Assembly (NCBI GenBank): GCA_020846635.1
Contig: JADLDO010000036.1
Location: 1 to 64,000 of the forward strand
DNA: 64,000 nucleotides
Direction of reading: 5' to 3'
DNA from: Caldilineaceae bacterium
Lineage (GTDB): Bacteria > Chloroflexota > Anaerolineae > Caldilineales > Caldilineaceae
How positions within the stretch are numbered: the first letter of the stretch is position 1; each line of letters opens with the position of its first letter. This document shows positions 22,462 to 32,704 of the stretch, piece after piece. The notes beneath the pieces were generated by a model. The model was given only the letters and a program-made list of their open reading frames with translations, did no database searches and had not been told where the DNA came from. The translations under genes were made by a program, and so were the position numbers.

Positions 22462-22526
22462 CGTACCGCCTTATCTGGCAGCCTGTATCGAACGCGAGTT
22501 GAGATAACAAGTTGGGACAAAGTGAC

Positions 22527-23393
22527 ATGACGCATGAATCGGTGGATGTGACCGACCTGACCGCCGAGCTGCAATTTGCCAGCAAGGTGGCACGCGAGGC
22601 AGCGACAATTGTAAATACGTTTTATGTGGGTTCATCAGAGGTTCGCTATAAGAATGACCACGAGCCTGTGACGGAAGCGGATCGTTCGGCCAATCAACAC
22701 ATCGTTGCACGCGTGAAGGCGGCATTTCCCAACGATGGGTTGTTGTCCGAGGAATCGAAGGATGATCTGTCACGCCTGGATAAGGAGCGCGTGTGGATCA
22801 TTGATCCGCTGGATGGCACCCGGGAGTTTATTGCACGCAATGGTGAATTCTCGATCATGATCGGGCTCGCCATACGCGGACGTGCGACCCTGGGTGTTGT
22901 TATGCAGCCGGAGAGTGGCTTGCTCTATGCCGGGACTGTGGGGCGCGGGGCATGGCTCTATGAGGCGGAGGAGACAATTCCGCTGCATGTGAGCGATACC
23001 GATAAAACGAACCGCATGATCTTGGTGAGCAGCCGCAGCCACCGGCAGCAGATCACGGACAAGATTCGCGCCTCGCTGCGTATTACGAGCGAACGGGTGA
23101 GCGGCAGCGTGGGGCTGAAAGTGGGGTTGATCGCCCGCCAATTGGCGGACCTCTATGTTCACCCTAGCCCTGGTTGCAAGGAGTGGGATCTCTGCGCGCC
23201 GCATGCATTATTGGAGGCGGCGGGGGGGCGCATCACAGATTGTTGGGGCAACCCCCTGACCTATAACAAGCGCGATGTGCGCGCCCATAATGGCCTGGTT
23301 GCCTCCAATAATAAGGCGCATGATCAGGTTGTGGACGTTGTGGCGCAAATCTGTGAGGAATTTGGCTTTAACGAGGATGACGGCTTTTGGTAA
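22527..23393 (+). CDS. cysQ: Inositol-monophosphatase-family phosphatase, CysQ-like
   Basis: 288 residues of the Li+-sensitive, Mg2+-dependent phosphatase superfamily. Metal site motifs: EPVTEADRSAN, LLSEES, IDPLDGTREF and, near the C terminus, CKEWDLCAPHALLEAAGG. The DPLDGT..F spacing and length suit 3'(2'),5'-bisphosphate nucleotidase (CysQ), which recycles PAP from sulfate assimilation; inositol-1-phosphatase is the alternative. The ATG at 22527 is preferred over a TTG five codons upstream. It has its own promoter and is followed by the promoter of the wall-hydrolase operon. Confidence 0.85.
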   Translation: MTHESVDVTDLTAELQFASKVAREAATIVNTFYVGSSEVRYKNDHEPVTEADRSANQHIVARVKAAFPNDGLLSEESKDDLSRLDKERVWIIDPLDGTREFIARNGEFSIMIGLAIRGRATLGVVMQPESGLLYAGTVGRGAWLYEAEETIPLHVSDTDKTNRMILVSSRSHRQQITDKIRASLRITSERVSGSVGLKVGLIARQLADLYVHPSPGCKEWDLCAPHALLEAAGGRITDCWGNPLTYNKRDVRAHNGLVASNNKAHDQVVDVVAQICEEFGFNEDDGFW

Positions 23394-23426: not shown

Positions 23427-23505
23427 CGTTTTTCTTATTGGGGCTATTGGGTTAGGCTGTTGATCTACCACGCCCTTTCTCCCACATCAGCGCAAGGCTT
23501 GCGAC

Positions 23506-26502
23506 ATGGCGTCTAATCCGTTCGAGAGCCAGTGGATTTATGGTTTACATGATCCCGGTGGCGAGCAGATCATGCTCGCCGCCCAGAAGCCAGGATGGCT
23601 TGTCTTTACTGAAGCCGTGGGCCATGACCCGCGTGATCGTTCTGGGCGCGATTTTCGTCCGTACAGTAATCGCGGCTTTGGGATTATCTGCCGTATCAAC
23701 AATGGCTATCATCCAGAAGGCACGCTGCCTTTGAGCCGATTTTATGGCGATTTCGCGCAGCGCTGCGGCAGTTTTGTGGCTGCGAGCCCCGGCTGTCGTA
23801 CTTGGATTATCGGCAACGAGACCAATTACGAGATTGAGCGCCCCGCGCTCTCGCGACAGGGGAGTGTGCCGCACGCCGAACCTGGCAGTGCAGCCGCGCC
23901 CGTTGCCCCTGGTCAGAGGGCGCGAAGTGCGTGGTGGGAACGAGCGATGGCATGGCTGCGACAGGCTATGCACAACGCGCCGCGCTCTGCGGGCACGCGG
24001 GATGGAAATGGGGACGCACATTCGAGTCCGGCTACAGATGACCCGTATCTGCGGGGGCTTCCGCAACGCTTCAGTGCTCTGTTGGCGACGGGGGACATCA
24101 AGGCGCAGGGGACATCCGCGCGGGCGTCACATGCGGGCGAAGTGATCACACCGCAGCTCTACGCGCAGTGCTACCGGCTCTGTCGCGATGCGATCCATCG
24201 CCTGCCGGGGCATGAGCAAGACCTGGTGTTGGTTGCCGCGCCTGCTCCGTGGAATAACCAGACGCGCTATCCGGGGAATGAACGGGGCGACTGGGTACGC
24301 TACCTTCAGGATGTCTTGGAATTGCTGGGGCCGGATCATTGTGATGGTTTCACGCTGCACACCTATACGCATGGTGCAGGGCTGAATACGATTACCAGTG
24401 AGGCGCGCATGAACGCGCCTTTTAACGACCGGCGTTTTTACTTCCGGGCATACCAGGATTTCTTGCAGGCGACGCCCATCTCCATGCGCCACCTGCCCGT
24501 CTACATTACGGAGACTGACCAGGTTGAACCGTGGGTGGATGCGAATACGGGATGGGTGCAGGCGGCGTATCGGGAGATAGATGATTGGAACCGGCGTCCG
24601 GGTACGCAAAAAATTCGGTCGTTGGCGCTCTATCGCTGGCCCAAGTTTGATCGTTGGTATATTGACGGCAAACAAGGGGTCATTGCCGACTTCCGAGCCG
24701 CTTTGGCGACGAATTATCGCTGGGACATAGGCCAGCCGCAGCCTGCCGCCTATCGCAAGGGCAGCCGGTTACGGGTGTTGGGCTATGTGAACCTGCGACG
24801 TACGCCCGGTTATGTAGGCAAAGGCGCGCAAGATCGATTGGTCGAGTTGAAGCCGGATCAGCAGGTGGTTGTGGCTGAAGACGGCAGCGCGCAGGGCGAT
24901 GGGTTGATCTGGTGGCGGGTACAGGTGGTTGGGACACAGCCGCCTGTTGTGGGGTGGATTGCACAATTTGGACCGGATGGCGCGGCACTTGTCGAGTTGA
25001 TTGCGCCGGAAGCACCGCCCACTTCGCCGCCAACGACACCATCGCCGCCCGCCGAACCGTCCAAACCACCGGTTGCGGCGCGTTTTCAGCGCGGCCAGCG
25101 GGTGCGTACGACCACCATCGTCAATGCGCGCCGGTCGGCTGGGCATCTCAATAAGCCTGCCGGTGATGTTGTGCAAGAGGTGGCGTTGGGCATGGTGCTG
25201 CGGCTGGGAGAAGGGCCGCAGATTGTCGATGGATTGGTTTGGTGGCTGGCTGCTGTGGATGGTGGCGGCGCGATTGGGTGGATGGCTGAAAATTCGCCCA
25301 CGGGTGCGCCACTGCTGGAGCGAGTGGATGAGACAGCGCCGCCGACAAGCCCACCCGTACCCGGGGCGCGCTTCAAGCCTGGTGATCGGGCGATGACGGT
25401 AGCTTTTGTGCGGTTGCGCCGTACGCCTGGCTATATGAACAAGCCGGGCGACGATGTCATTGCGGACATTTGGCAGGGGACTCTTGCCGTAATCCTCTCT
25501 GGGCCGAAAGCGTTGGATGAACTGACGTGGTGGGAGGTTGAAACCCAGGAGATTACCGGCAAGGGTGTGCGTGGTTGGATGGCGGAGAGTGCGCCGGGTG
25601 GCGTGCCCTTGCTGGATGCGTGGACGGCGGAAGATCGGACGCCCTTTACTGTGAGCGACCTGGCAGTTGTCGGGTCGAGCCCGGTACGAGTGCGGCGGAC
25701 GCCGGGCTTTCTGGCAAAGCCCGATGATGATGTGCTTGGCGAATTCGCCCCTCATACGACGCTGTATTTGCAAGAAGGGCCGCGCCAGGCGGATAACATT
25801 GCCTGGTGGCGAGTCTCCGGCGTGATAAAGCTCGGCAAGGTGAATGGCTGGGTGGCACAGGGCGCAACGAATGGTGCGACACTGGTTGGACGTGCGCCTA
25901 AGTTGCAGGGGACGGATATTCCGAATCTTCAAAAGGGGCTGTTCATCGCCACACCGTTTAGTGGACAGCATATCATTACCCAACTTTGGGGTGAGAACGC
26001 TCAGTTCTATTCGCGTTATTCTTATGAAGGGGTGCCGCTGGCAGGACATAATGGAATTGACTTTGGCACGCCGGTTGGCACTGCAGTTTTGGCGACCGAG
26101 CTTGGTGAGGTGGTACATGTTGGATATGAACCCACCGGCTATGGACATTTTATCCTTTTGGCCCATTCATGGGGTCAATCGATCTATGCCCATTTGAACA
26201 GTGTGAGTGTGCAAATGGGACAGCATGTGGGACGCGGCCAGACCATCGGTATCTCTGGCAACACAGGCAGCAGCAGCGGGCCACATCTTCACTTTGCCAT
26301 TCGCATCCACCCCTTCACCCGTACGGACGGCTGGGGTGGTTTTTCTGATCCTTTACCCTACTTGAATCCGCGCGACGTCGCTTGGCCTTCCTATATGATG
26401 GACATTGGGCCGCAGGCCCCCCAGCAGATACCGGGGCCGGAGAGTGAACTGCGGTCCCCTCCGGGCATGGCTGATGACGCGCCAGGGTACATACGAGCAT
26501 AA
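23506..26502 (+). CDS. Glycosidase-like domain, four SH3-like repeats and M23 endopeptidase
   Basis: 998 residues. N-terminal domain (about 1-410) resembles a clan GH-A TIM-barrel glycosidase: an Asn-Glu pair at 104-105 (WIIGNETNYE) in acid/base position and Glu336 in PVYITETDQ in nucleophile position; a ~90-residue Ala/Pro-rich insert lies at about 115-205. Four bacterial SH3-like modules follow (about 420-800), each with a motif such as VRLRRTPGYMNKP, joined by Pro/Thr linkers. The C-terminal M23/LytM domain (about 805-965) has intact zinc ligands His848, Asp852 and His929, with His927, and should cut peptidoglycan cross-bridges. No N-terminal signal peptide or anchor is visible. First gene of a pair; the next starts 11 bases later. 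Confidence 0.88.
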   Translation: MASNPFESQWIYGLHDPGGEQIMLAAQKPGWLVFTEAVGHDPRDRSGRDFRPYSNRGFGIICRINNGYHPEGTLPLSRFYGDFAQRCGSFVAASPGCRTWIIGNETNYEIERPALSRQGSVPHAEPGSAAAPVAPGQRARSAWWERAMAWLRQAMHNAPRSAGTRDGNGDAHSSPATDDPYLRGLPQRFSALLATGDIKAQGTSARASHAGEVITPQLYAQCYRLCRDAIHRLPGHEQDLVLVAAPAPWNNQTRYPGNERGDWVRYLQDVLELLGPDHCDGFTLHTYTHGAGLNTITSEARMNAPFNDRRFYFRAYQDFLQATPISMRHLPVYITETDQVEPWVDANTGWVQAAYREIDDWNRRPGTQKIRSLALYRWPKFDRWYIDGKQGVIADFRAALATNYRWDIGQPQPAAYRKGSRLRVLGYVNLRRTPGYVGKGAQDRLVELKPDQQVVVAEDGSAQGDGLIWWRVQVVGTQPPVVGWIAQFGPDGAALVELIAPEAPPTSPPTTPSPPAEPSKPPVAARFQRGQRVRTTTIVNARRSAGHLNKPAGDVVQEVALGMVLRLGEGPQIVDGLVWWLAAVDGGGAIGWMAENSPTGAPLLERVDETAPPTSPPVPGARFKPGDRAMTVAFVRLRRTPGYMNKPGDDVIADIWQGTLAVILSGPKALDELTWWEVETQEITGKGVRGWMAESAPGGVPLLDAWTAEDRTPFTVSDLAVVGSSPVRVRRTPGFLAKPDDDVLGEFAPHTTLYLQEGPRQADNIAWWRVSGVIKLGKVNGWVAQGATNGATLVGRAPKLQGTDIPNLQKGLFIATPFSGQHIITQLWGENAQFYSRYSYEGVPLAGHNGIDFGTPVGTAVLATELGEVVHVGYEPTGYGHFILLAHSWGQSIYAHLNSVSVQMGQHVGRGQTIGISGNTGSSSGPHLHFAIRIHPFTRTDGWGGFSDPLPYLNPRDVAWPSYMMDIGPQAPQQIPGPESELRSPPGMADDAPGYIRA

Positions 26503-26513
26503 TTGGGGCGCGA

Positions 26514-29500
26514 ATGACTCGTCCTTTATTTGATACAGAGTACCTCTTTGGCCTGCATGAGGCCGGAGGGGAACAATTGATGTTGGATGCGGGCCGGAAG
26601 GGCTGGATTCTCTTTAATGAAGCAATCGGCCATGATCCCGCAGACAAACGTGGCGTCGACTTTGGCCGTTGGAGTGACCAGGGGTTTGGAATCATTTGCC
26701 GTTTGAACAATGGTTTCCCACCCGATGGTACGATTCCTCATTCCAGTCTCTATGAGGAGTTTGCGCGGCGGGTGGCGAGCTTTGTCGCGGCCAGCAGCGG
26801 CTGTAAGATCTGGGTCATTGGCAATGAGATGAACTATGCCGTGGAGCGACCTGGTGTGCAGGTGGATTGGTCGCGCCATGCTTCGACGCGTGCGACGACG
26901 CCGGAAGCGGGGGATCCGCTACGGCGTGGTCTGGTCACGCGCTTTAACGTACTGCCCGATCATTCAACGGAGATTCGCACCACGCGCGGGGCGACGATTA
27001 GCCCCGGCGAGGTGATCACACCAGAGATGTATGCGCGCTGTTATAAGCTCTGCCGCGATGCCATCCACCGGCTGCCTGGTCATGCCGACGATCAGGTTGT
27101 GGTGGGCGCTGTTGCCCCGTGGAACTCGCAGACGATCTATGCCGGGAATGCGAATGGCGATTGGGTGCAGTATTTCCGCGATATTCTGGAGCAGTTGGGG
27201 CCGAACCAATGCGATGGGATTGCGCTGCATACCTACACGCATGGAGGCGATCCAGAACTGATTGGCAGCGAAGAAAAGCTGGCTCCGCCTTTTCAGAATT
27301 ACCATGCGGAATTCCGCGCTTACACGGACTTTCTGGGCGCTGTGCCGGAAGCGATGCGGACGCTGCCGGTCTATATCACCGAGACCGACCAGAGTGAGCC
27401 GTGGCTGGATGTCAACAGCGGTTGGGTGCAGAAGGCCTATGAGGAGATTCATGGCTGGAATATGCAGCCGCATAATCAGCAGATTCGCGCGCTGGTGCTC
27501 TACCGCTGGCCGTTGTTGGATCGTTGGCATTTGGCGAGCAAAGCAGGCGTGTTGGAAGATTTCCGAGCGGCGTTGGCGCATGACTACCGCTGGCGCGGCA
27601 GTGAGTTGGGCCAGGCGAGCGAGCAGGGAACGGTCTTGGTGACGGATACGTCCCCCAAAGAGTCCAATCGCCAAAGGCGGCGGCGCGAAAAGGAAGCCGC
27701 AGCAAGGGCACGCGCCGAACGGGAACAAGCGGAAAGAGAGCGTGCCGCCAAAGAACGCGTCGAAAAAGAACGCGCTGAAAAAGAACATACTGATAAAGAA
27801 CGCGCCAATAAAGAACGCGCCGACAAGGGACAAGTCGAAAAAGAAGCGACTAGCCGGGATCGCAGCCGGCAAGAGCCTGTTGAGCGGACGCCTGCGCCGA
27901 AAGAGCGAGATCGCTCTGAGCGCGAAAAGGAGCGTGAAACAAATCGCCAGGTGCGAACTGCGCCCTATCGCGCGCAATGGCTGGACGACCGCTTTCCGAG
28001 CCGCTTGAATGCCGGGCAAATTGTGACTGTGCCGATTACGGTCAAGAACAATGGCGCGATTCCGTGGACACCGGGTGGTGAACATCCATTCCGGCTTGGC
28101 TACCGCTACTATCGCAACCGCCGCATTTTGTCGTTGGGCGAAGAGAAGGATCTTCGTACAGAAGTGCCACAGACGGTCGCCGAGGGCGAAACCGTCACGA
28201 TCAACGTGCGTATTGCCCTGCCAGACCAGCCCGGCAACTATACACTGGAAATGGATATTGTCCATGAAGGAGTGACCTGGCTCAAGGAGCAGGGGTCGCC
28301 GGTGCTGACGCGCTGGTTGACTGTGGAAGCGCCGCGGCGCGAGCTGAAGCTGGACGGTTCCGACCAGTCGTCGCTGCCGGTGCCGCTCTTCTCCGATATT
28401 TCCACCGTCCTGCCACGGGCCGGAACGCCCTATGCGCGGCGCGGTTTGAACCAGATTCGCTATATTGTGATCAGCCATACGGGGGCGCATCCCCGGCTGA
28501 GTTTGGATCGCATCGCCGAGACCCACATCCAGTATGGCTATCCCGGCATCGTCTATGACTTTGTGGTGGATAGCAATGGACAGGTCTTTAAGGTCACGAA
28601 CCTGGAAGAGGTGGCGCAGCCGGATCAAGTGTGGTCGGAGCAGGGTGTCAATATCTGCTTGACCGGCAACTTTTCGGCAACGGCTCCGGCGCTGGCACAA
28701 TTGGATGCGACGGGACGCCTGTGTGCATGGCTGGCGCAGAATTTGGGACTGGCGCCAGAAAGCATTGTGGGGATGAGCGAACTCACCAAGAGCGAAAGCC
28801 CTGGTGATAGCTTTTACCGTGGATTGGCCTGGAAGAACATTCTGTCACGCCAGGTTCAGTTGCATCTCGCGGCCTTTAGTGGTTCGGGTGATAACAGCAA
28901 GGTACAGGAGCTAACCCACGCACTTGAAGAATCGCGCGTGCAGAACCACGAACTGCAAAGCCAACTCAAGATCGCCGAGGATGCGCGGCTGCGGCTGGAT
29001 ACGCTGCATTCGCGCTTGCAGGCTGAGGTCGTCGAGTTGCAGCAGCAGATGGCGACCCAATCGGTGCAGACGGTTGGGGGGATTCGCATCTTCGATTGGG
29101 TGGAGCAACTGCCACGGGATGCGGAACAGTATCGCCCGCGCAGCGCGCAAGATGTGCGCTTCTTGGTGATTCACCACACGAGCGTTGATCCGGCAACACC
29201 TTTGGAGGAAATCGCGCAAAGCCAGCGGCAGGAGTGGCCCGGTATTCTCTATGATTTTGTGGTGGATGCCAAAGGGGAAATATACCAGACACAGCCGTTG
29301 GAGCAGGCTTTGGCTGTTGACGAAGAGTATCTGGCAAAGGGAATTCAGATCGCTTTTGCCGGGGACTTTACCGATGCCATTCCCAACAATGAGCAGCTAT
29401 ATGCGGGTGGGCGACTGATTGCATGGTTGATGGAACGCTATCCCCATCTGCGTACTGAGCAGATCAAAGGAGTGCGCGAGTTTGTGCCGCAGCCGTCGCC

Positions 29501-30614
29501 GGGTGATCAATGGAATGACGGACAACGATGGCGCGAGATGCTCCTGGCCGCGGTTCGCCGGACGCGCGGCATGGTCGAACCAAGCGAAATGGAGACACAA
29601 CTGCGCGTGAAACTAGCGCAGATTGAACATGAGCTTCAAGTGGCCCAACGCAGCAATCAACTGCTGCAAGAGCAAAAGACGCGTCTACAAACGGAGTACC
29701 AGCGCCTGCAAACCCAGGCCGCGGAACAGCAGGATAACAAGGTCTATGTCATCCCGCAACCGGCGATTCGCAACGTTGTTGACCAGTTGGCAAAGCATCC
29801 CACGCTGCGCTTTGAGCGGCGTCCGTTGAGCCAGATCACCCACCTGGCGATTCATCACACGGCGACGCCGCCCAGCGTAAGCCCTACCCGAATTGCCGAA
29901 ATGCATGTGTCGCCCGATTCAAACCGCGGCAAGGAGGCATGGCCCGGAATTGGGTATCATTACTTTATCCACGCTGACGGTACGATTGACCAGACCAATC
30001 TCCTGGAGACGGCCTCGTATCATGTCCACCGGCACAATATCTATTCGGTGGGGATTGTCTTTGCAGGCAGTTTTATGAACGGTAAGATTCCGACATCGGC
30101 TCAATTGCGGTCAGGGGCACATCTTACAGCATGGCTGATGCAGGATCTCAATGTGCCGTTGGCACGCGTTTGGGGACACCGAGAATTTCCAGACAACACA
30201 ACTGTATGCCCTGGAAGCGAGTGGACATTGGGGAACCGTTGGCGTGACCTGCTCTTTGAACGGATTGAGCAGATCCAAGCGGGCGTGGGTGTCAAGAGCG
30301 TGCGCCATTATATGCTCTTTTGGCAGCGTTCGTATCCTGGGCCACTGGCGCGCCAAGATTTGGTCAATGCCATTAACTACATTGTGCGCTTCCGTCCGGC
30401 GCTTGGGTTTAGCCTGAACGACGCGCGCAATGCTGAGTATGTGACGATTGTGGGGAGTGAGGCGGGGATCAGCGCGGCGGAAGAAAAGGCGCTGCAAAAT
30501 AGCGGTTGTAAGGTCGAGCGCATCGCAGGGCGCGATGAGGAGGAGACCAGCCGCATGTTGTCGGAGTTGGCGAACTTGGGGCGACGCTTCCGCAATTTTG
30601 ATGTTGATTTTTGA
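26514..30614 (+). CDS. Glycosidase-like domain, charged coil, Ig-like domain and three PGRP/amidase_2 domains
   Basis: 1366 residues. The N-terminal domain (about 1-365) is a paralogue of that in the preceding protein (Glu105 in VIGNEMNYA, Glu290 in YITETDQ). A Lys/Glu/Arg-rich coil (about 380-480), an NBR1-type Ig-like domain (about 485-605) and three N-acetylmuramoyl-L-alanine amidase (PGRP-type) domains follow at about 645-785, 865-1010 and 1095-1260, separated by two coiled coils. Only the third keeps zinc ligands His1114, His1222 and Cys1232; the first has Ser, Met and Ser there, the second keeps just the first His. A ~100-residue C-terminal domain is unrecognised. No signal peptide is seen. 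Operon partner of the M23 protein. Confidence 0.88.
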   Translation: MTRPLFDTEYLFGLHEAGGEQLMLDAGRKGWILFNEAIGHDPADKRGVDFGRWSDQGFGIICRLNNGFPPDGTIPHSSLYEEFARRVASFVAASSGCKIWVIGNEMNYAVERPGVQVDWSRHASTRATTPEAGDPLRRGLVTRFNVLPDHSTEIRTTRGATISPGEVITPEMYARCYKLCRDAIHRLPGHADDQVVVGAVAPWNSQTIYAGNANGDWVQYFRDILEQLGPNQCDGIALHTYTHGGDPELIGSEEKLAPPFQNYHAEFRAYTDFLGAVPEAMRTLPVYITETDQSEPWLDVNSGWVQKAYEEIHGWNMQPHNQQIRALVLYRWPLLDRWHLASKAGVLEDFRAALAHDYRWRGSELGQASEQGTVLVTDTSPKESNRQRRRREKEAAARARAEREQAERERAAKERVEKERAEKEHTDKERANKERADKGQVEKEATSRDRSRQEPVERTPAPKERDRSEREKERETNRQVRTAPYRAQWLDDRFPSRLNAGQIVTVPITVKNNGAIPWTPGGEHPFRLGYRYYRNRRILSLGEEKDLRTEVPQTVAEGETVTINVRIALPDQPGNYTLEMDIVHEGVTWLKEQGSPVLTRWLTVEAPRRELKLDGSDQSSLPVPLFSDISTVLPRAGTPYARRGLNQIRYIVISHTGAHPRLSLDRIAETHIQYGYPGIVYDFVVDSNGQVFKVTNLEEVAQPDQVWSEQGVNICLTGNFSATAPALAQLDATGRLCAWLAQNLGLAPESIVGMSELTKSESPGDSFYRGLAWKNILSRQVQLHLAAFSGSGDNSKVQELTHALEESRVQNHELQSQLKIAEDARLRLDTLHSRLQAEVVELQQQMATQSVQTVGGIRIFDWVEQLPRDAEQYRPRSAQDVRFLVIHHTSVDPATPLEEIAQSQRQEWPGILYDFVVDAKGEIYQTQPLEQALAVDEEYLAKGIQIAFAGDFTDAIPNNEQLYAGGRLIAWLMERYPHLRTEQIKGVREFVPQPSPGDQWNDGQRWREMLLAAVRRTRGMVEPSEMETQLRVKLAQIEHELQVAQRSNQLLQEQKTRLQTEYQRLQTQAAEQQDNKVYVIPQPAIRNVVDQLAKHPTLRFERRPLSQITHLAIHHTATPPSVSPTRIAEMHVSPDSNRGKEAWPGIGYHYFIHADGTIDQTNLLETASYHVHRHNIYSVGIVFAGSFMNGKIPTSAQLRSGAHLTAWLMQDLNVPLARVWGHREFPDNTTVCPGSEWTLGNRWRDLLFERIEQIQAGVGVKSVRHYMLFWQRSYPGPLARQDLVNAINYIVRFRPALGFSLNDARNAEYVTIVGSEAGISAAEEKALQNSGCKVERIAGRDEEETSRMLSELANLGRRFRNFDVDF

Positions 30615-30708: not shown

Positions 30709-30727
30709 TAAGCTCTGGCTTGTGACT

Positions 30728-31627
30728 ATGGCAAATCCTTCTACGAGTTCTGGCTATCAGCCCGGTGGCGCTGCGGGGATTACGGGAGTGACCAGTCCCC
30801 ATCAGGGGCTGGGCGCTGCCTATGCTGTCTCGTTGCCGCTTTTTGAAGGGCCGCTAGACCTGCTGCTGCACTTGATTGAGCAGGAAAAGCTCGATATCAA
30901 CGAGATCAGCTTGGTTGCCGTCACTGACCAATACCTCAAGACAATTGACCAACTCGTCGAAGTTGCCCCTGGTGCGCTGGCTGATTTCTTGGTGGTGGCC
31001 TCGCGGCTGCTCTATATCAAATCAACACGCTTGCTGCCTAAGCCTGCCACGGGCGAGGAGGATGAGGAGGATACGGGTGACAACCTCGTGCGTCACCTGT
31101 TGGAGTACCGCCAGTTTAAGCGCGCTGCAACAGAGCTGCGCAGCCGCCAGGATGAAGGTTCGCGCCTCTTTGTGCGGCCTCCGACGACGGTTGACCTGGG
31201 CGAATTGACGCAGAAGCCGCCGGAGTTTGGCGAGTTGGATGCGACGCTCTTGCAGAAGGCGCTACAGCGTGCTTTGGCACGAATTCCTGTCTTGCCGCCA
31301 CCCCCGAAGGTACATTCCTATACGGTAACTGTGGCAGAGCGAATCGAGAGCGTGCGTAGCCTGCTGGCAGAGGCGCGCAAGTCGGCTCAGCCAATGCTCC
31401 CACTTTCCTTTGCGGGCCTGCTGGACGAAAGTAGTTCGCGGCTTGAGATTATCGTCACGTTTCTGGCGGTGTTGGAGTTGATTAAGCAGCGCGAAGTGGT
31501 GGCGCGGCAGGATGCTACCTTTGGCGAGATCGTCTTGCTGTTGGCCGATGAGGATGGGCCGGTGAATGAGGGGCAGAATCCTGCCGATGGAGAGAATTTA
31601 GCGACGGCGACGGAGCCAGAGGAGTGA
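30728..31627 (+). CDS. scpA: Segregation and condensation protein A
   Basis: 299 residues from the ATG at 30728 (a GTG two codons earlier is possible; neither has a clear ribosome site). Kleisin subunit of the SMC condensin that compacts and segregates the chromosome. The N-terminal signature FEGPLDLLLHLIEQEKLDIN is followed by ITDQYL-like and LADFLVVASRLLYIKSTRLLP, and the C-terminal winged helix by LEIIVTFLAVLELIKQREV. The C-terminal ~25 residues are acidic and non-conserved. scpB is not in the window. Its 3' end overlaps the convergent surface-protein gene by 30 bases. Confidence 0.94.
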   Translation: MANPSTSSGYQPGGAAGITGVTSPHQGLGAAYAVSLPLFEGPLDLLLHLIEQEKLDINEISLVAVTDQYLKTIDQLVEVAPGALADFLVVASRLLYIKSTRLLPKPATGEEDEEDTGDNLVRHLLEYRQFKRAATELRSRQDEGSRLFVRPPTTVDLGELTQKPPEFGELDATLLQKALQRALARIPVLPPPPKVHSYTVTVAERIESVRSLLAEARKSAQPMLPLSFAGLLDESSSRLEIIVTFLAVLELIKQREVVARQDATFGEIVLLLADEDGPVNEGQNPADGENLATATEPEE

Positions 31628-32704
31628 ACCACCGAAAATCCCGGCGCCGGAAAAACTGAGCAACCCCACCGCAAGCAGGCCATTTGGCCCGTTGCGTTCG
31701 GCGATCTGGATGAGTTGGGTCTGCGCGTCGCTGGGGAACGTGCTGGCTTGTGCAGGAGTGACAGTGGGCCAGGGCGTCCAGGTGGCTGTTGGGGTCGGCG
31801 AAGGCGTTGGTGACGGTGTGGGGGTGACGGTCGGTGTCGCGGTTGGCTCTGGGGTTGGCGAAGGTGTTGCGGTTGGTGTGTCTGTGGGCAGTGGGGTATT
31901 TGTGGGTAGCACAGGCGGTGCGGCGACCATTGCCGCGGCTGCCTGTTCAACGACTACTGCTTCTGGCGTGGCCGTGGGCGGCTCTGCTGTAGGTGCTTCG
32001 GGTGTTGGGGGAATTTCGACGGCGACTGCTGGCGCGCTTTCGTCTGGGAGAAGCGCGATTGCGTCGATAAAGATAAAATTGTCACCCGTGCTTGCTGGGT
32101 GATCGACTAAGAAAAAGACCGTGACGGTGTCTGTGGCGGCGCGTGCCCTGACGTCGATGTTGACGTCGGGTGGTGGATAATTGAGGACGCGGCCATCGCC
32201 CCAGTGCATTGGCCCCCAGACGACATTGGGGCTGCTGGGATCCGTGCCACCCGTTGGGTCGATGCCGAGTTGGCGACCAAATTGATCGGGTGCATTGGGT
32301 GCGCCCCACGAGATACTGGCACGATAGCCCGCGCCTGGCGATACTTGTACTTGTGTAAAGATACCCGCTTTGAAAGTGCCGCCACTGTTGTGCATTTTGA
32401 GGGTTGGCGGGCCAAAAAAGCTGTGGGCGCTGCCCGCCGATGTCTCGACAATATACGCAACATCACCTGACAAGACGAATGGACTCCAACCGCTGGGTAG
32501 TTGGTTTGGCGGGCTGCCGACAGGATTCTCCATATCGCAGACCGGCTGCGGGATGACGTTGGGTGAATTGCACGGGTCGGACGCCTGCGCCGGAGCCGCG
32601 AGTGTGAGACTTAAGGCCAGCGCCAACAATGTGGCTGCGAGCGGTTGGCGAAGACGGTAGATCTGCTGGCACTGATTCTGGAAGCGGCGGACATTCGAGG
32701 TCAT
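31598..32704 (-). CDS. Secreted surface protein with Thr/Pro stalk and C-terminal anchor
   Basis: 368 residues. Signal peptide with a basic start, hydrophobic LAATLLALALSLTLAAP and an AQA-S cleavage region near residue 41. The extracellular domain (about 45-225) is beta-rich, with DNFIFIDAIALLPDE typical of a carbohydrate-binding-like jelly roll. A Thr/Pro stalk (about 230-320; TPTATPSPTPEPTATP) leads to a C-terminal membrane segment and LLWLRRRR, the layout of a sorting-type anchor. Attachment to the cell surface is inferred. The start lies 7 bases from a TATACT box with no ribosome site, so the mRNA is probably leaderless. Tail-to-tail overlap with scpA. Confidence 0.85.
   Translation of the reverse strand: MTSNVRRFQNQCQQIYRLRQPLAATLLALALSLTLAAPAQASDPCNSPNVIPQPVCDMENPVGSPPNQLPSGWSPFVLSGDVAYIVETSAGSAHSFFGPPTLKMHNSGGTFKAGIFTQVQVSPGAGYRASISWGAPNAPDQFGRQLGIDPTGGTDPSSPNVVWGPMHWGDGRVLNYPPPDVNIDVRARAATDTVTVFFLVDHPASTGDNFIFIDAIALLPDESAPAVAVEIPPTPEAPTAEPPTATPEAVVVEQAAAAMVAAPPVLPTNTPLPTDTPTATPSPTPEPTATPTVTPTPSPTPSPTPTATWTPWPTVTPAQASTFPSDAQTQLIQIAERNGPNGLLAVGLLSFSGAGIFGGSLLWLRRRR

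Follow-up and report, generated by a model that had tools for sequence, protein, structure and literature searches.

The window analysed here is the whole stretch of 64,000 nucleotides, taken from a 6.8-Mb draft genome whose named relatives belong to the Caldilineaceae (Anaerolineae, Chloroflexota). Two ORFs that the initial annotation had placed at 23506-30614 were both found there on the plus strand, separated by a gap of 11 bp, and will be referred to as P1 and P2. The features of the locus, all on the plus strand (+), are as follows:

22512-23393 (+): inositol-monophosphatase-family gene, upstream of P1 (PF00459, 7e-58)
23506-26502 (+): P1, 998 aa; leaderless predicted GH-A barrel, four SH3-like repeats, M23 peptidase
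23506-24735 (+): P1 predicted GH-A barrel (aa 1-410), E105 at 23818-23820, E336 at 24511-24513
24751-25887 (+): P1 four SH3-like repeats (aa 416-496, 527-604, 623-703 and 714-794)
26044-26307 (+): P1 Peptidase_M23 core (PF01551, 8e-25; HxxxD and HLH motifs)
26380-26499 (+): P1 Pro-rich C-terminal tail, ending in PGYIRA
26514-30614 (+): P2, 1366 aa; leaderless predicted GH-A barrel, charged linker, Ig, three Amidase_2, CWB2-like end
26514-27602 (+): P2 predicted GH-A barrel, E105 at 26826-26828, H239, E290 at 27381-27383
27624-27953 (+): P2 Lys/Arg/Glu-rich linker, seen in the sequence
27963-28301 (+): P2 NBR1-type Ig-like domain (PF16158, 4e-4, below the curated cut-off)
28449-28781 (+): P2 Amidase_2 copy 1, zinc ligands second His and Cys lost (putative pseudo-enzyme)
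29148-29468 (+): P2 Amidase_2 copy 2, zinc ligands second His and Cys lost (putative pseudo-enzyme)
29829-30215 (+): P2 Amidase_2 copy 3, all zinc ligands kept
30237-30593 (+): P2 C-terminal domain with CWB2-like wall-binding motif (profile match)
30722-31627 (+): scpA, segregation and condensation protein A (PF02616, 3e-31), conserved downstream neighbour

The stop-to-stop ORFs open at 23464 (P1) and 26478 (P2). Because this leaves in-frame room for only 14 and 12 codons, respectively, 5′ of the starts, the two proteins cannot carry a signal peptide; none had been visible at the outset either. Leaderless starts were also seen in the relatives inspected; a signal peptide masked by a misplaced start was ruled out, given the 12-14 codons available and the same starts in the relatives. 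Scanning the region for promoters and terminators gave no convincing signal, with terminator-like sites at chance level (8 found, 8.8 expected) and weak promoter-like sites (9 found versus 4.4 ± 2.4 expected).

The shared N-terminal domain

Both proteins open with a homologous domain, as first described, the two copies being approximately 55% identical. The Asn-Glu pair (N104-E105) occupies the same place in P1 and P2, and the second Glu pointed out within the motif YITETDQ corresponds to E336 in P1 and E290 in P2. The P1 copy has an extra insert of ~45 aa after the NE motif. In an AF2 model of the P2 domain (pLDDT 87.6, pTM 0.87), eight strands are formed by residues 12-15, 31-37, 59-65, 99-102, 194-197, 235-242, 286-293 and 324-329, so that E105 comes after strand 4, while strands 6 and 7 bear H239 and E290, respectively. 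Foldseek searches against the PDB retrieved enzymes of GH26, GH5, GH39, GH128, GH30, GH53, GH35 and GH79 with a probability near 1; the best matches (GH26, GH5, GH39, GH128, GH30 and GH53) reached 1.00, and the top of the list consisted nearly entirely of GH-A enzymes.

Profile comparison by hhalign with a PF11790/GH128-like set, made up of six GH128-like proteins of the class, yielded a probability of 97% and an E-value of 9.4e-11, which holds for this one pair only. In the alignment, N104-E105 falls on the NEP acid/base motif and E290 on the TE nucleophile motif. Forty column-shuffled versions of the GH128-like set gave at most 3.1% probability, and the six-protein set itself matches GH128 and GH39 structures. 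Among 122 homologues, E105 and E290 are each missing from a single sequence, so that 120 retain both. Pfam matched nothing on the P1 and P2 copies. Among 44 relatives it gave weak matches, to PF11790 (Glyco_hydro_cc) in one (best 5e-5) and to DUF5722 in seven (best 8e-4), and the curated cut-offs for PF11790/GH128 or DUF5722 membership were not reached. PDB sequence searches with one copy of the domain or with a 44-row profile returned no credible match.

As judged from the model, the shared domain is a clan GH-A (β/α)8 barrel, in which E105 is the predicted acid/base and E290 the predicted nucleophile by their position on the model strands. The barrel represents a so far unnamed and undescribed GH-A glycosidase domain. 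The clan GH-A call of the initial annotation, for which a fold search had been suggested, is thus upheld by AF2, Foldseek, hhalign and the conservation of both Glu, and the concern raised there that the domain might prove unrelated to glycosidases can be set aside. To our knowledge, no GH-A family is a muramidase or cuts the glycan of peptidoglycan. For this reason the barrel probably attacks another wall polymer, a wall- or sheath-bound polysaccharide, rather than the peptidoglycan glycan; the proposed cutting of the peptidoglycan "sugar backbone" is not supported.

GH128-like barrels were also encountered in other Anaerolineae, one leaderless with SH3-like C-terminal parts (L148) and one with an amidase-like N-terminus (L149). 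Pairing a GH128-like barrel with extra domains is perhaps a wider habit in Anaerolineae.

Hydrolase and wall-binding modules

The wall-hydrolase partners assigned to the barrels at first, SH3-like repeats with M23 in P1 and an Ig-like domain with amidase in P2, were recovered by Pfam and profile matches. The four SH3-like repeats of P1 were found with a profile built from repeat 3. The M23 core contains both zinc motifs, HxxxD and HxH (GHNGIDFG and HLHF). The M23 proteins of this genome fall into two sorts, those with a signal peptide or TM anchor and a leaderless set comprising P1 and prophage lysins. The C-terminal tails of P1 relatives are variable and Pro-rich, the very end being mostly PGxxRP or PGRxLP; this short motif also occurs on the differently built protein L044.

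P2 carries three Amidase_2 domains (Pfam, 2e-50). In copy 3 the zinc ligands His, His and Cys are present in 49/49 P2-type sequences, whereas in copies 1 and 2 the second His is absent and the Cys is replaced by Ser (rarely Asn), without exception in 46-49 P2-type proteins. The plural "amidases" claimed initially therefore holds for the number of domains but not for their zinc sites. As copies 1 and 2 lack these two zinc ligands, one active amidase per P2 is to be expected: judged by its residues, the third Amidase_2 is the only active amidase domain of P2, and copies 1 and 2 are probably wall-binding pseudo-enzymes. Family searches, on which all genome-wide counts rest, detected no Amidase_2 protein in the genome other than P2, and a single Amidase_3.

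A 37-row profile of the P2 C-terminal domain matched Cwp8 (3.5e-12), an S-layer protein (7e-9) and Cwp6 (0.01) in the PDB, while single sequences gave no match to PF04122. P2 has one CWB2-like motif and not three tandem copies. Together with the SH3-like repeats, the dead amidase copies and the Ig domain, this end probably holds P1 and P2 on the wall.

A leaderless Amidase_2 joined by a glycosidase is the combination known from AmpD and NagZ, and the two leaderless proteins might accordingly recycle wall fragments in the cytoplasm, as those enzymes do in Escherichia coli. However, M23 peptidases act on the cross-linked wall, the CWB2-like and SH3-like binding domains and the large modular build are at odds with recycling in the cytosol, and the barrel is common to phage lysins (see below); we consider a recycling function quite unlikely.

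Neighbours, distribution and phage relatives

Clustering of the neighbours of 91 distinct loci revealed scpA as the next gene after the barrel gene, on the same strand, in 43. Of the 52 P2-type genes followed by 900 bp or more of sequence, and hence testable, 40 have scpA directly downstream; Pfam confirmed ScpA (PF02616) at L021 as well. The inositol-monophosphatase-family neighbour recurs in 12/91 loci, and neither a transporter nor an immunity gene was found to be conserved beside P1- and P2-type genes in this clustering. The 3′ end of scpA in the window is overlapped on the opposite strand by an ORF (31598-32704, −) with a signal peptide, a Pro/Thr-rich stalk and a C-terminal membrane anchor.

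P2-type genes occur across the class Anaerolineae, and P1-type genes are, as far as this sample goes, characteristic of Caldilineaceae. One P2-type gene (L024:4058-8143, −; G006:C332) is split by a single in-frame TAG within the barrel. The condition set at the outset, that the pair should stay together in related genomes, is half borne out: Caldilineaceae retain both proteins, but adjacency is limited to about ten genomes of this family, the source genome included, and elsewhere the two lie on different contigs. These adjacency counts are lower bounds because MAG contigs are short. Both architectures reappear in other Caldilineaceae and the domain is spread over the Anaerolineae, so that neither is due to chance.

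The conserved scpA neighbour brings up the main rival explanation, non-classical export of cell-separation enzymes: P1 and P2 could be ordinary autolytic enzymes that living cells export by an unrecognised signal-independent route and that act at the septum. The CWB2-like and SH3-like wall-binding domains and the position of P2 as the only Amidase_2 protein found, with one Amidase_3 besides, would fit, and the short C-terminal motif common to P1 tails could serve as a signal. A surface hook protein reported from Litorilinea likewise has no signal peptide, with a predicted transmembrane stretch (PMC13319060). Nevertheless, no transporter is conserved beside the genes, the genome already possesses M23 proteins with a signal peptide or TM anchor, and the same modules are those of phage lysins. 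We regard such export as less likely than not.

Three other genes of the source genome (L041, L042 and L043) contain the barrel. In L042 (C43) it is combined with M23 and SLT and in L043 (C19) with M23 and a muramidase, both accompanied by terminase and portal genes. L043 is followed by a holin-like gene (phrog_6918, E 0.0018), and two small multi-TM genes are located just upstream. L041 (8167-10800, +; G000:C27) encodes a leaderless protein with GH-A barrel, SH3 and N-acetylmuramidase in a non-phage neighbourhood; it ends in a double hydrophobic segment (hairpin) and might be a lysin that brings along its own membrane-active terminus. The same genome encodes two further large leaderless proteins with other GH-A-like motifs and M23 (L044:4461-8969, +, and L045:7213-10908, +), the former also having SH3 repeats.

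Beyond the source genome, a scan of IMG/VR, whose contigs are computer-called viruses, revealed the barrel on 40 contigs, typically at the extreme N-terminus, with M23, muramidase or SLT domains often coming next. PHROGs matches for 81 proteins from eight of these contigs included terminases, portals, head proteins, DNA polymerases and holins. As a tblastn search of the INPHARED phages gave no match, the connection to phages is based on the IMG/VR contigs and the prophages. Small holin-like multi-TM genes flank 7 of 30 viral barrel genes, compared to 4 of 91 large viral genes picked at random; such a neighbour was detected at 0 of 63 cellular loci. The suggestion of lysis from within is thus backed by lysins of phages and prophages that contain this domain, but not by a holin near the cellular genes. 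In the barrel tree, viral and cellular copies are largely apart and both prophage copies fall among the viral ones (weak to moderate support, 79-94, between viral and cellular groups; the root is arbitrary). In the M23 tree, P1 groups with the prophage protein L042 and the viral L244, away from the signal-peptide or TM-anchored M23 proteins of its own genome. Since the same leaderless GH-A module opens Chloroflexota prophage and phage lysins, common ancestry of P1 and P2 with these lysins is well supported by the sequence comparisons, and transfer may have gone in either direction.

The domain held in common with prophage lysins could also mean that P1 and P2 are leftovers of a degraded prophage. 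The neighbours, however, are of the housekeeping type, the gene order beside scpA is conserved class-wide and the catalytic residues are near-invariant, which makes this origin extremely unlikely.

Sheath genes of contractile systems were detected in 22/41 genomes including the source genome, and further M23 proteins without a leader, of which one contains an SH3-like repeat, lie ~20 kb or less from sheath clusters in G006 and G022 (L194:9311-12397, −, and L196:8245-9729, +). This could speak for P1 and P2 being used as weapons on other cells, with a contractile injector or the lysis of the producer as the means of delivery. In contrast, several near-complete genomes with both protein types (G012, G014 and G019) gave no sheath match, and no immunity gene is conserved nearby. 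Dependence on, or loading into, a contractile injector was rejected on the basis of these genomes, the predation or competition considered earlier is not supported by way of an injector, and a weapon function in general appears unlikely. The contractile injection cluster of the source genome (L192 and L193; G000:C39, ~185000-209000), with a sheath gene (PF04984), baseplate-like ORFs and an 1800-aa ORF, is far from P1 and P2.

Possible role in dismantling the cell envelope

The absence of a leader, the wall-binding modules, one predicted active peptidoglycan cut per protein and the module shared with phage lysins together point to endolysin-type enzymes held in the cytoplasm. We therefore propose, with about an even chance of being right, that P1 and P2 are cell-encoded enzymes of this type for dismantling the wall or filament and are kept inside until the membrane is breached. 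Both, lacking an export signal, would be synthesised in the cytoplasm, and each would combine a GH-A glycosidase with one active peptidoglycan hydrolase, the M23 endopeptidase in P1 and the third Amidase_2 in P2. The enzymes would wait inside the cell and gain access to the wall once the membrane fails or is broken through, or via an unlinked holin-like pore. The barrel might then strip wall- or sheath-linked polysaccharide while the M23 and amidase domains cut peptidoglycan peptides, and a filament cell that dies or separates would have its multilayered envelope taken apart. The conserved scpA neighbour, which hints at coupling to the cell cycle, may tie the enzymes to it.

We infer that the most economical role is to dismantle a cell or to split cells apart, perhaps with a use in filament fragmentation. 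Litorilinea aerophila, a relative within the Caldilineae, has a multilayered envelope thought to be without an outer membrane, and cells in its filaments break, with empty remnants staying behind at the filament ends (PMC13319060). MAGs named Litorilinea aerophila carry P1-type genes. On the other hand, class-wide conservation beside scpA looks more like housekeeping than suicide, and the wall-binding end would suit a normally exported autolysin too. A farther-reaching version of the lysin proposal, namely a class-wide, vertically kept set for programmed lysis or filament fragmentation that has a common origin with phage lysins, uses a new GH-A family to strip the outer wall polymer of Chloroflexota and is coupled in its production, via scpA, to chromosome segregation, is speculative and in our opinion improbable as a whole.

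The locus provides entry points to the questions of what holds the multilayered, outer-membrane-free envelope of Chloroflexota together and how filamentous members cut or shed cells. That phages and hosts alike keep a glycosidase family points to an envelope sugar polymer that needs cutting to open the cells. Furthermore, a leaderless wall hydrolase conserved beside scpA across a class raises the question of how an unexported wall enzyme can serve the cell cycle.

With GH128 (PF11790, Glyco_hydro_cc), GH26, GH39 and GH5, the P1 and P2 domain shares the barrel, the NE after strand 4 and the nucleophile Glu on strand 7; unlike GH128 and the other GH-A families, it has no sequence match to a solved structure and only weak PF11790 (1/44) and DUF5722 (7/44) hits. 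The CWB2-like motif of P2 resembles the wall-binding motif of LytC/CwlB of Bacillus and Cwp6/Cwp8 of Clostridioides, which in LytC and Cwp6 is joined to an amidase. Those proteins are Sec-exported and have three CWB2 copies, whereas P2 is leaderless with one CWB2-like copy and uses Amidase_2.

Phage endolysins of the M23, muramidase or SLT type are leaderless modular wall hydrolases, as are P1 and P2, and those of Chloroflexota phages have in common with them the GH-A barrel and often the M23 type. A phage lysis cassette with a holin is present at the paralogue L043 but absent from the P1-P2 locus, where the context beside scpA is a housekeeping one, and P1 and P2 additionally carry SH3, Ig, pseudo-amidase and CWB2-like parts. 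They also differ from the holin/endolysin (type 10) secretion and explosive cell lysis of Pseudomonas (PMC9527704, PMC4834629) in being without a linked holin or spanin, outside a prophage or pyocin cluster and conserved beside scpA. The likeness to these systems would lie in an endolysin-type enzyme employed for the purposes of the cell; the evidence from P1 and P2 suggests that here, too, the cell makes its own use of a lysis enzyme of the phage type.
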